Assembly: GCA_905182175.1 (NCBI GenBank)
Contig: CAJJAT010000012.1
Coordinates: 1 to 64,000, forward strand
Direction: 5' to 3'
DNA length: 64,000 bases
Origin: Flavobacteriales bacterium UBA1494
GTDB taxonomy: Bacteria > Bacteroidota > Bacteroidia > Flavobacteriales_E > Vicingaceae
A model generated the notes under the pieces. The model was given only the letters and a program-made list of their open reading frames with translations, searched no databases and was not told where the DNA came from. The translations under genes were made by a program, and so were the position numbers. This document shows positions 19,392 through 23,170 of the stretch, piece by piece. Each line of letters starts with the position of its first letter. The stretch's first letter is position 1.

Positions 19392-20798
19392 TTATGCTTC
19401 TACCTGAACAGCTTCAGCTACCTTTTTTAAATTGGGATTTTTTGCAGCAAATTCTTCCATTACCTTAAAGAAGTTTAAAATGTCAACTTTCTCATTGTTT
19501 GCATTAATGGTTACTAATCGGACAAAAACTTGGCCTTTAAATGCTCCAAAACCTACTACAGTAATTTTATTTTCATACAATGCGGTGCACAGCGCAGTAG
19601 GGTCTATGTTTTTGTAATTAAAACAGATAGAGATTGACTCATCAAAGCTATATAAGGTGTAGTCCGGATTACTTCTAATGTAATCCAATGCTACATTAGC
19701 CAAATCAAATTGTTGGTCTACTATTTGTTCTAAGCCTTTCGTTCCAACAGATTTCCAAAGCGTCCAAAATTTCAACGCATCGTTTCTTCTTCCGCATTGA
19801 AAGGACGTTTTACCTAAATTAAAATCATCCCCATCCGTTTGGTAAAGGTAATCTGCGTCATTGCTAAAAGAATCGTGCAAATGTTTTTTGTCGTTTACTA
19901 AAATAATAGAGCATGTTAACGGTGTTCCGAGCATTTTATGAGCATTGTAACTGAACGAGTCAGATCGTTCTAATCCATCAACTAGGTGTTTGTATTTTTC
20001 GCTAAAAATAACACTTCCACAGTACGCTCCATCCACATGTAGCCAAATTCCATACTTTTCAGTAATGTCTGCAATCTCATTTATTGGATCAAACGCTCCT
20101 AACACAGTTGTACCGGCTGTAGAATTTACATAGGTAGGAACAAGTCCATCTTCTATGTCTTTTTTTACTTGTTCTTCCAACGCTGATGGAATCATTCGAC
20201 CAACAGAATCCGATTTAATATATCGAATGTTATCCCTACCTATTCCGGCAAAACTTGCATTCTTATCGTTCGAATAATGAGATTCCTTGGAAGTGTAAAT
20301 GATCAATGGCTTCGACATGCCTTTTGTTCTTGCATGTGAATCTTTTGCATCTCGTCCCATTACCAAAGCCATGTAATTACTCATGGAACCTCCTGTGGGA
20401 AAGGTCCCGTTGCTCTTGGAGCCGTACCCAATTATGTTGCAAGATTGTCTTATAATTTCTTGTTCAATACCCACTTGAGGACCAGCGACTTTATAGGTAT
20501 ACATACTGTTATTTAAAACAACAGCCAATAGATCCCCTAACACAGCTTTGCTTTGTCTGCCACCAAATAATTGGTTAAAAAATAAATTTGTTGCCGTTTT
20601 GGGAGTTGAGACAATTACGTCTTTCAGCACTGCTTTAAACTCCTCATCAACCATTGCGGTTTCATTCAACGAAAGATCTATTGCATCGTATAATTTATCC
20701 GCTTGGATTCGATCCGCTACCGGATGCTGCTCCTCTTCATTGATTAAAACTTCAACTAGTTCATTAAATAGAACTAAATCACTACTAATATCAGACAT
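19392..20798 (-). CDS. PLP-dependent decarboxylase, predicted cysteine sulfinate decarboxylase
   Basis: A 468-residue group II decarboxylase (glutamate/cysteine sulfinate/aromatic amino acid family). Lys288 in SFSYNAHKMLGTPL binds PLP. His173 in SKESHYSND stacks on the cofactor and Asp256 in HVDGAYCGS contacts the pyridine nitrogen. FPTGGSMSNYMAL is the phosphate-binding region. The gene starts 11 bp after the cysteine dioxygenase stop on the same strand. From that context I infer the substrate is cysteine sulfinate, giving hypotaurine; glutamate, aspartate or diaminobutyrate cannot be excluded by sequence alone. Confidence 0.85.
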   Translation of the reverse strand: MSDISSDLVLFNELVEVLINEEEQHPVADRIQADKLYDAIDLSLNETAMVDEEFKAVLKDVIVSTPKTATNLFFNQLFGGRQSKAVLGDLLAVVLNNSMYTYKVAGPQVGIEQEIIRQSCNIIGYGSKSNGTFPTGGSMSNYMALVMGRDAKDSHARTKGMSKPLIIYTSKESHYSNDKNASFAGIGRDNIRYIKSDSVGRMIPSALEEQVKKDIEDGLVPTYVNSTAGTTVLGAFDPINEIADITEKYGIWLHVDGAYCGSVIFSEKYKHLVDGLERSDSFSYNAHKMLGTPLTCSIILVNDKKHLHDSFSNDADYLYQTDGDDFNLGKTSFQCGRRNDALKFWTLWKSVGTKGLEQIVDQQFDLANVALDYIRSNPDYTLYSFDESISICFNYKNIDPTALCTALYENKITVVGFGAFKGQVFVRLVTINANNEKVDILNFFKVMEEFAAKNPNLKKVAEAVQVEA

Positions 20799-20809
20799 GT
20801 ATTTTTTTA

Positions 20810-21361
20810 TTATATTTTTTCCTCAATTTCCATACAGGTATCGTAAGACATTTCTTTTCGCACAAATGTTCTTGTATTCTCATCAAATAAATGACAATTT
20901 CGAATTGGTTTTGCGTATAAATGTAGCGATATTGTTCTCCCAGCACTTATATTTTCTAACCGGTGACAGCCCATAAAGTCTATCATATAAGATGTATCTC
21001 CTGTTTTAGAAATAATTGATTTAACAGACTTTAGTTCTCCGTCTTTATCTACTTGGTAAATTGTTTCTTTAAATCCACCTTGAATCACTTTAACCCAACA
21101 TTCTTCGCCACCATGGTCGTGAATAGGAGTTTTCTGACCTTTCTCCCAACAGAGTAAAATCAATTCAAACTCTTCGTTTTCAGCAATACAATTTCTAGTG
21201 TAGCATTTACTACGCCAAGACATATATCGTTCAAAAACAGTACTTGATAAATTAATGGATTCGATTATGTTCGCAAACTCCGTCCTCTCCCCCTCTGAAA
21301 GGGCTGCAACTAATTCCTTTGGAGATTGAATTATTGTTTGATTTTGTTCGGTAGGATTCAA
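20810..21361 (-). CDS. Cysteine dioxygenase type I, with Cys-Tyr cofactor residues
   Basis: A 183-residue cupin. The iron ligands are His81 and His83 (PIHDHGGEEC) and His133 (MGCHRLENIS). Arg56 (TRN) matches the substrate-carboxylate Arg60 of the mammalian enzyme. Cys88 lies five residues after the second His and Tyr149 is in SLHLYAKPI; these match the Cys93-Tyr157 pair that forms the thioether cofactor in animals. It oxidises L-cysteine to cysteine sulfinate with oxygen. It is first in a two-gene operon with the decarboxylase. A -7 box (TACATTTG, 21468-21461) lies upstream. Confidence 0.92.
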   Translation of the reverse strand: MNPTEQNQTIIQSPKELVAALSEGERTEFANIIESINLSSTVFERYMSWRSKCYTRNCIAENEEFELILLCWEKGQKTPIHDHGGEECWVKVIQGGFKETIYQVDKDGELKSVKSIISKTGDTSYMIDFMGCHRLENISAGRTISLHLYAKPIRNCHLFDENTRTFVRKEMSYDTCMEIEEKI

Positions 21362-21460
21362 AATGGATTTTTTTTTCTGTTCATTAAATGCACAGACCCA
21401 AGGTTACTCCCCAAATCCAGCTTATTAATCTGACAACAACTGCCAAAATAATTAACAGCA

Positions 21461-21468
21461 CAAATGTA
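21461..21468 (-). promoter_or_regulatory. Candidate -7 promoter element for the cysteine dioxygenase operon
   Basis: TACATTTG on the minus strand fits TAnnTTTG and lies 100 bp upstream of the dioxygenase ATG. No convincing -33 element is visible at the expected distance. Confidence 0.45.
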
Positions 21469-21637
21469 TTAATTTACCTGTTCTTTAAATTCCTTATCAA
21501 GCAGTTACAAAATACTTTTTTTAGTTTATTTCAATTTTTTTTATCATTTTGCAGTCCGTAAGAAATTTACTTCACCCTAATATTTTTAAGGTCGTGATAC
21601 TTGCGTCAATTTCAAACCAATCAAAATTTAATTAAAG

Positions 21638-23170
21638 ATGATAGATCAAAATTTTATAATCAAAATTGCTGTATTAGCAGGATACGTTGGTATTCTATTC
21701 CTCATTGGAATTCTTGCTTCACGCAGAATTAAGGGCATGAGCGACTATTATGTCGGAGGAAAAAACATGGGATTCTGGGCAGTTGCTTTTTCAGCTAGAG
21801 CAACAGGAGAATCAGGCTGGCTATTAATTGGACTTACAGGAATGGGCGCTATGGCTGGGTTTTCCGGCTACTGGGTTGTGGTAGGTGAATTGCTCGGGGT
21901 CATTGTTTCGTGGCAATTCATGGCGAAACGATTCAAAAAGCGATCTGACAGTTACGGCTCCATTACCATTCCGGATTATCTTACAAGTCATTTTAAATCT
22001 GCCACGAACACCTTACGCATTACGGCAGCTTCCATACTTGTTATCTTTATTGTCATTTATGTTGCTTCTCAAATTGATGTTACCGGCGTTGCTTTTGAGT
22101 CTATGCTAGGAATTGACTACCGACTAGGAGCATTAATTGGATTTTTTATTGTATTGTCTTACATTTTTGTAGGCGGTTTTGTTGCTGCTGTATGGTCTGA
22201 TTTATTTCAGGGTTTTTTAATGTTTTTAGGCCTTGTTTTGTTGCCTATTGTTGTTTGGTTCTCAATGGATCATGGAGCTGGAATTACAGCGGGATTAAAT
22301 GCGATTGACCCTACACTAACACAAGTTATGGGAAGAAGCTCTGACCCATGGATGAACTTGTTTACAATCTTGGGATTTTCCATGATTGGACTTGGCTTTT
22401 TAGGCTCACCACAAGTGTATGTTCGATTTATGTCCATTAAAAATGAGAATGAAATTAACAAGGGAAAGTGGGTTGCTGCTTTCTTTACCCTATTAACGGA
22501 TGCCGCTGCAGTAACTATTGGAATACTTGCCCGAATCTACTTCACGAAGAATGGAGATGATCCTGAAGCTATTTTAGGGAACAATGGCGAAAATGTATTA
22601 AGCATGATTACCGAGAGCTTCTTACCTACTCTATTGGTTGCAATTTTTATTGCCATCGTTTTGTCTGCAATTATGTCGACCATTGATTCACTTTTAATAT
22701 TAGCCTCCAGTGCCATTACGCGAGATTTTTACCAAAAAATATTTCGTCCAAGTATAAAAGACCAAGACCTTACTAAAATTTCCAGAATTTCTACCATTAT
22801 AATGGCCTTTACCGCGCTGATAATTGCAATGATTATGAACTATGTATCTCCCGACAGGCAGATTTTTTGGGTCATTATTTTTGGTTGGTCCGGCATTGCA
22901 GCAACATTTTGTCCAGTCATTATTCTCTCCCTTTTTTGGAAAGGCTATTCTGAAAGGGGCGCTATCGCTTCCATGGTTGCGGGATTTATATCGGTTATCC
23001 TGTTCAATTTTGTATTTAAAGAAATGGCCGACGTTGGAACGTATTTTATTGCGCTCGATGTTCTCGCTCCATCCTTTGCGGTAGCGATGCTTGTTGGCTT
23101 TTTGGTTTCAAAAATATATCCACCAAGAGTCGAAGCCGTAAAAATGATTGAAGAAATTGATGCGCAATAA
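21638..23170 (+). CDS. Sodium/solute symporter (SSS family, PutP-like)
   Basis: A 510-residue protein with about 13 membrane helices. The N-terminus (GILASRRIKGMSDYYVGGKN, then ARATGESGWLLIGLTGMGAM) is the typical SSS start with sodium-site residues in the first core helix, and SAIMSTIDSLLILASSAITRD is the conserved helix-8 signature. The closest named type is the proline symporter PutP; the true substrate is uncertain. It is divergent from the cysteine dioxygenase operon, so an osmolyte or amino-acid role is attractive but unproven. A decayed copy of its last 35 codons occurs at 25090-25194. Confidence 0.88.
   Translation: MIDQNFIIKIAVLAGYVGILFLIGILASRRIKGMSDYYVGGKNMGFWAVAFSARATGESGWLLIGLTGMGAMAGFSGYWVVVGELLGVIVSWQFMAKRFKKRSDSYGSITIPDYLTSHFKSATNTLRITAASILVIFIVIYVASQIDVTGVAFESMLGIDYRLGALIGFFIVLSYIFVGGFVAAVWSDLFQGFLMFLGLVLLPIVVWFSMDHGAGITAGLNAIDPTLTQVMGRSSDPWMNLFTILGFSMIGLGFLGSPQVYVRFMSIKNENEINKGKWVAAFFTLLTDAAAVTIGILARIYFTKNGDDPEAILGNNGENVLSMITESFLPTLLVAIFIAIVLSAIMSTIDSLLILASSAITRDFYQKIFRPSIKDQDLTKISRISTIIMAFTALIIAMIMNYVSPDRQIFWVIIFGWSGIAATFCPVIILSLFWKGYSERGAIASMVAGFISVILFNFVFKEMADVGTYFIALDVLAPSFAVAMLVGFLVSKIYPPRVEAVKMIEEIDAQ

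Follow-up and report, generated by a model that had tools for sequence, protein, structure and literature searches.

Bacterial synthesis of hypotaurine and taurine by a cysteine dioxygenase (CDO) and a cysteine sulfinate decarboxylase (CSAD) is already published, and the locus described here is of that kind. Agnello et al. 2013 (ACS Chem Biol 8:2264) reportedly presented bacterial CDO-CSAD operons, together with the CSAD of Synechococcus sp. PCC 7335. Two other papers confirm the bacterial CDO-CSAD pathway and the Synechococcus enzyme (PMC8153620, PMC10356861). CSADs are told apart from glutamate decarboxylases (GADs) by a three-residue motif, F, S and Y in CSAD (F-aa19-S-aa-Y), the second and third of which are N and F in GAD (PMC4754659). 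The same paper traces the CSAD motif to Agnello et al. 2013, and exchange of the motif by mutagenesis in fish CSADs changed the decarboxylation of cysteine sulfinate (PMC4754659). With respect to the dioxygenase, bacterial CDOs are said in a 2021 paper to use an unmodified tyrosine (PMC8050391), and according to an earlier review many bacterial CDOs are without the cysteine that lies at position 93 of human CDO (PMC4019311).

The two enzyme genes and their active sites

The window, i.e., the whole stretch of 64,000 nt that was analysed, is from a 3.33-Mb draft genome of the Bacteroidota that is 96% complete; a same-genus genome (L002/G004) is that of an uncultured Flavobacteriales MAG. The CDO gene (20810..21361, minus strand) has a TTG start, which is kept in three of four relatives, and encodes 183 aa. 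The decarboxylase gene (19392..20798, minus strand) encodes 468 aa and lies downstream of CDO in the same direction, after a gap of 11 bp (20799-20809). A third gene, for an SSF-family Na+/solute symporter (21638..23170, plus strand), is divergent from CDO, and the 276 bp that separate it from the CDO-CSAD pair (21362..21637) are the presumed site of both promoters. The sequence-only reading of this DNA had the open reading frames and the 11-bp gap exactly right, and the residues it named in the dioxygenase, Arg56, Cys88 and Tyr149, are all present in the translation. In comparison with the nearest relative, both enzyme genes are under purifying selection, with dN 0.13, dS 0.92 and dN/dS about 0.15 for CDO, and dN 0.09, dS 1.9 and dN/dS about 0.05 for the decarboxylase. 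Thus both are maintained genes.

The CDO translation matches Pfam CDO_I above the gathering cut-off (E 7.1e-26). Its top PDB matches are mammalian CDO1 (E 4e-25), and the next, non-mammalian CDOs, follow at 2e-10. R56, C88 and Y149 align with R60, C93 and Y157 of human CDO. Also conserved are H86, H88, H140, S153, H155, Y58, W77 and C164 (human numbering), so that the window CDO is identical to the human enzyme at all 11 active-site positions checked (YRWHHCHSHYC). The features of an Arg-type enzyme are present, namely the cupin CDO_I domain with its three iron histidines (H86/H88/H140), an arginine and not a glutamine at the carboxylate position (Arg60, here R56), and the S-H-Y motif (S145/H147/Y149 in window numbering). 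The two residues of the eukaryotic-type Cys-Tyr pair, equivalents of Cys93 and Tyr157, are both found as C88 and Y149. By these residues the protein is a predicted Arg-type cysteine dioxygenase with a Cys-type (Cys93) site, and the Cys88-Tyr149 pair may form a thioether cofactor as in mammals.

Cys93 is universal among the decarboxylase-linked Bacteroidota CDOs examined. It is also present, with Arg60, in two Vibrio CDOs (L048, L049) that have no decarboxylase nearby. The sequence-only reading had noted that most bacterial CDOs are reported to have Gly in place of Cys. Position 93 is Gly in the Bacillota CDO examined, from Priestia, but in the Bacteroidota and Vibrio enzymes just named the cysteine is not unusual. 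At the sequence level the Bacteroidota Cys-type CDOs contradict the generalisation that the tyrosine of bacterial CDOs is unmodified (PMC8050391). Such Cys-type bacterial CDOs are natural enzymes in which the purpose of the cross-link could be studied. Two further observations were made in the CDO family. A Streptomyces protein (L051) combines Gln60 with Cys93, an unexpected combination, and four Bacteroidota CDO-family proteins (L035-L038) have F or Y at H88, the second iron histidine, and no Cys93; these are possibly non-enzymatic or differently acting cupins.

The decarboxylase matches Pfam Pyridoxal_deC above the gathering cut-off (E 2.9e-73), and human and mouse CSAD are its top PDB matches (E 4e-82). 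It is a group II PLP decarboxylase with its catalytic lysine, the PLP lysine being aligned with that of the CSAD NPHK sequence. F78, S98 and Y100, the first two separated by 19 residues (F78-aa19-S98-aa-Y100), form the exact published CSAD motif. Because of these three residues and their spacing the enzyme is predicted to be a CSAD and not a glutamate decarboxylase. The glutamate decarboxylase identity was considered and rejected: N and F are absent at motif positions 2 and 3 (S98/Y100), and the GAD model TIGR01788 scores 24 bits against a cut-off of 380. The F-S-Y motif, of which the sequence-only reading made no use, is the strongest single sequence argument for the predicted pathway. Together the two enzymes very probably convert cysteine to hypotaurine. 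The Fe(II) cupin CDO would oxidize L-cysteine with O2 to cysteine sulfinate, and the co-directional PLP enzyme would decarboxylate cysteine sulfinate to hypotaurine.

Pairing and ancestry of the two enzymes in Bacteroidota

Nearly every Bacteroidota Cys-type CDO adjoins a decarboxylase with an F/Y-S-Y motif, and the genes are found in two arrangements. The tandem order seen in the window is present in Flavobacteriales, Kordia, Cryomorphaceae, Cyclobacteriaceae and Flammeovirgaceae; the head-to-head order is seen in a second clade. That the pairing is kept in both gene orders speaks for a common function. Among 60 relatives, 14 have both a Cys-type CDO and a CSAD-type decarboxylase, one has CDO alone, five the decarboxylase alone and 40 neither, and among 394 genomes of the phylum the decarboxylase is present in all six with a Cys-type CDO and in two of the 388 others; both sets of counts ignore kinship. 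No such decarboxylase lies within about 1.5 kb of the CDO-like proteins that lack Cys93. A lack of genomic association of the pair in relatives had been named in the sequence-only reading as a result that would speak against it; the comparison was run, the association was found, and the reading stands on this point. Its two-gene hypotaurine pathway is likewise supported by the CSAD motif, the best PDB match and the strong genomic association, but as a pathway it is not new, bacterial CDO-CSAD pairs having been published. A search of viral contigs revealed no relative. In the plasmid collection the CDOs were all distant (<33% identity), and the matches listed included no close decarboxylase of CSAD type.

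The pairing has exceptions. Two genomes have only CDO and SSF at the locus (L014/L015), with CSAD encoded elsewhere in the genome. A CDO on a short contig (L028, G035) has no adjoining decarboxylase, and the only one found in that genome is 34% identical. F/Y-S-Y decarboxylases without an intact Cys-type CDO are present in G012, G026, G029, G030, G036, G174 and G282, where the enzyme may act on a different substrate or obtain its substrate by another route. The neighbours of the lone F-S-Y decarboxylases, a HAD phosphatase and housekeeping genes, gave no hint of another substrate. At a contig edge in one of these genomes (L103 1-120, G029:C61) a CDO fragment ends shortly after residue 103, with loss of His140 and Tyr157, and is followed by the start of CSAD; this is either a truncation or an assembly artefact.

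That F-S-Y enzymes exist without CDO should be considered in relation to the substrate. The decarboxylase might act mainly on aspartate, to give beta-alanine, or on cysteate, to give taurine, as GADL1/CSAD-type enzymes can, and CDO would then supply part of the flux only. The motif of the adjoining decarboxylase is F-S-Y throughout with the exception of two linked enzymes (L017, L018), which have a GADL1-like Y-S-Y, and the symporter family is tied to beta-alanine clusters (see below). The window enzyme, however, has the exact F-S-Y motif of CSAD, CDO is adjacent in two arrangements, and both enzymes are retained in the two genomes with separated genes. Mainly aspartate or cysteate decarboxylation is thus quite unlikely, and cysteine sulfinate is the preferred substrate in what follows.

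The dioxygenase had also been termed animal-like. The term holds for the active-site residues, but descent from animals is a different matter. In the decarboxylase tree animal CSAD/GADL1/GAD67 fall in one clade (support 100) and the CSADs of bacteria in a second (99); because these clades are separate and supported, neither set derives from the other by recent copying. In the CDO tree, where branches are long and the human enzyme is the only eukaryote included, human CDO falls among the Bacteroidota enzymes without a resolved placement. The phylogeny suggested at the outset for both proteins thus separates the animal and bacterial decarboxylases but leaves human CDO unplaced. Horizontal transfer of the pair from an animal would explain the animal-like cofactor residues. 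Cys93 is common to both sides, and human CDO, at best 30% identical to those of Bacteroidota, sits among them in the tree; against this, the two decarboxylase clades are well supported, and the genes are varied and occur widely among the orders of Bacteroidota. Transfer from animals, for which the decarboxylase tree gives no support, is very improbable.

The window genome has additional sequences related to both enzymes. A second CSAD-like decarboxylase (G000:C31:40100-41446, L160; 54% identical), which the genus also keeps, has the motif I-S-Y (V-S-Y in sister genomes) and has no CDO nearby; in the tree it groups with the head-to-head-type enzymes of its own family. A decayed CDO-like sequence (G000:C26:49840-50163; L073 4841-5164) is intergenic, has three in-frame stops (E 2.8e-8) and may be what is left of an earlier CDO. 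Both the second decarboxylase and the CDO remnant would fit a lineage that took up the tandem cassette when it already had the older version.

The symporter and the predicted end product

The symporter matches Pfam SSF with an E value of 4.8e-73. It had been described as osmolyte-type; the SSF gene is real, but that label was a guess, the protein being PutP-related and without the PutP substrate-site residues, and new evidence points to beta-amino acids. In a clustering of neighbouring genes an SSF symporter is near CDO or CSAD at 26 of 36 loci, and any other neighbour is found at no more than 6 of the 36. The gene is divergent from CDO in tandem loci and follows CSAD in head-to-head loci. When SSF homologues of at least 63% identity are counted in the 60 relatives, 13 genomes have both CDO and SSF, two CDO only, one SSF only and 44 neither, without regard to kinship; CDO is present in 13 of the 14 genomes with such a close SSF homologue. 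SSF is not adjacent in the CDO-CSAD loci L016-L019, L066, L067 and L070, and SSF genes without CDO are found in G120, G195, G219 and others. The link of the symporter to CDO-CSAD looks new, no report of it having been found in the open-access library searched.

The best NCBIfam model for the symporter is PutP (TIGR02121), at 330.7 bits and below the cut-off of 515.5, and gene order can be common to close relatives without shared function. Both points would suit an ordinary proline carrier (PutP), or an unrelated one, that is adjacent through inherited gene order only. However, the SSF gene is adjacent in both tandem and head-to-head loci and on different sides of the pair, no other neighbour recurs at more than 6 of 36 loci, and D55, W244, Y248, Q251 and H253, which we take to be the proline/Na+ binding positions of PutP, are G, I, F, S and Q in the symporter and are replaced in all homologues. 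An ordinary or unrelated carrier is therefore considered unlikely.

Substrates of SSF proteins are poorly predicted by homology. Distant SSF homologues (about 53-58% identity) lie beside dihydropyrimidinase in eight genomes (L098, L113, L129, L131, L133-L136), and these clusters also carry an NCS1 permease (seven of eight), a nitrilase-family beta-ureidopropionase-like amidase (seven of eight) and a class-III aminotransferase (six of eight); dihydropyrimidinase is the only one of these proteins that passes its NCBIfam cut-off. The clusters make up a predicted reductive pyrimidine pathway that yields beta-alanine. They alone recur; the genes beside the remaining unlinked SSF genes showed no pattern. 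Beta-alanine, hypotaurine and taurine are built on a common skeleton that bears a carboxylate, a sulfinate or a sulfonate. Because SSF homologues are embedded in pyrimidine-degradation clusters, we infer from gene context that the symporter is somewhat more apt to carry small beta-amino acids (beta-alanine, hypotaurine, taurine), driven by Na+, than other solutes. If true, an SSF subfamily that is so far unassigned would gain a substrate.

The same two enzymes could also serve to dispose of excess cysteine or sulfur, in which case hypotaurine would be exported or degraded and the transporter would not be for the product. Mammalian CDO serves in cysteine catabolism, as does that of Bacillus/Streptomyces (PMC4019311), and the loci listed above where SSF is not adjacent are in keeping with disposal. 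But none of the recurrent neighbours of the pair in the 36 loci is a gene for handling hypotaurine or sulfite, and the only one that is widely conserved encodes a Na+ symporter, of a family that normally serves uptake. Disposal is the less likely role, although it deserves some weight.

The preferred reading is that of a hypotaurine module made up of two enzymes and a Na+ symporter for their product, to which we assign a probability of about 0.65. The gene identities, the catalytic and selectivity residues and the conserved association of three genes are established from sequence; the activities of all three proteins, the substrate and direction of transport and the physiological role are predictions. 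The SSF symporter would take up or recapture hypotaurine or taurine, and possibly beta-alanine, and by recapture the cell would keep hypotaurine as an osmolyte and antioxidant. No flavin monooxygenase (FMO, PF00743) above the cut-off was detected in the 96%-complete genome. Hypotaurine and not taurine is thus the predicted end product unless another oxidase acts; without an FMO-type hypotaurine oxidase, taurine would be formed only slowly or by another enzyme. If the reading is true, some Bacteroidota make hypotaurine themselves, with a carrier dedicated to it, and would be not only consumers of an organic sulfur osmolyte but also a source of it. A wider proposal is more doubtful, namely that this is a mobile three-gene Bacteroidota cassette that makes and keeps hypotaurine, whose SSF protein founds a beta-amino-acid transporter subfamily, a functional parallel of the animal taurine transporter though unrelated to it, and whose CDO forms the Cys-Tyr cofactor ascribed in reviews to eukaryotes.

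Comparison with known systems

The symporter is like E. coli PutP in belonging to the SSF family and in keeping the equivalents of S340/T341 and Y140, and it differs at the five binding positions given above and in its score below the PutP model cut-off. The CDO has the same Pfam family and iron site as the Bacillus-type Arg-CDO, but has Cys where the Priestia CDO has Gly at the Cys93 position, and the solved non-mammalian CDOs match it far more weakly than the mammalian ones. In relation to mammalian CDO1 and CSAD, all 11 CDO active-site positions checked, the CSAD F/S/Y motif and the predicted reactions are the same, whereas CDO identity is about 30%, the decarboxylases are in separate clades, the genes are adjacent here, and there is no FMO above cut-off for the taurine step. 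The locus is like the bacterial CDO-CSAD taurine pathway in its decarboxylase of CSAD motif and in its adjacent CDO and CSAD genes, which are conserved among relatives. In contrast to the cyanobacterial system of Agnello 2013, the locus has a Bacteroidota host and a symporter as third partner, and the genes are found in two arrangements.
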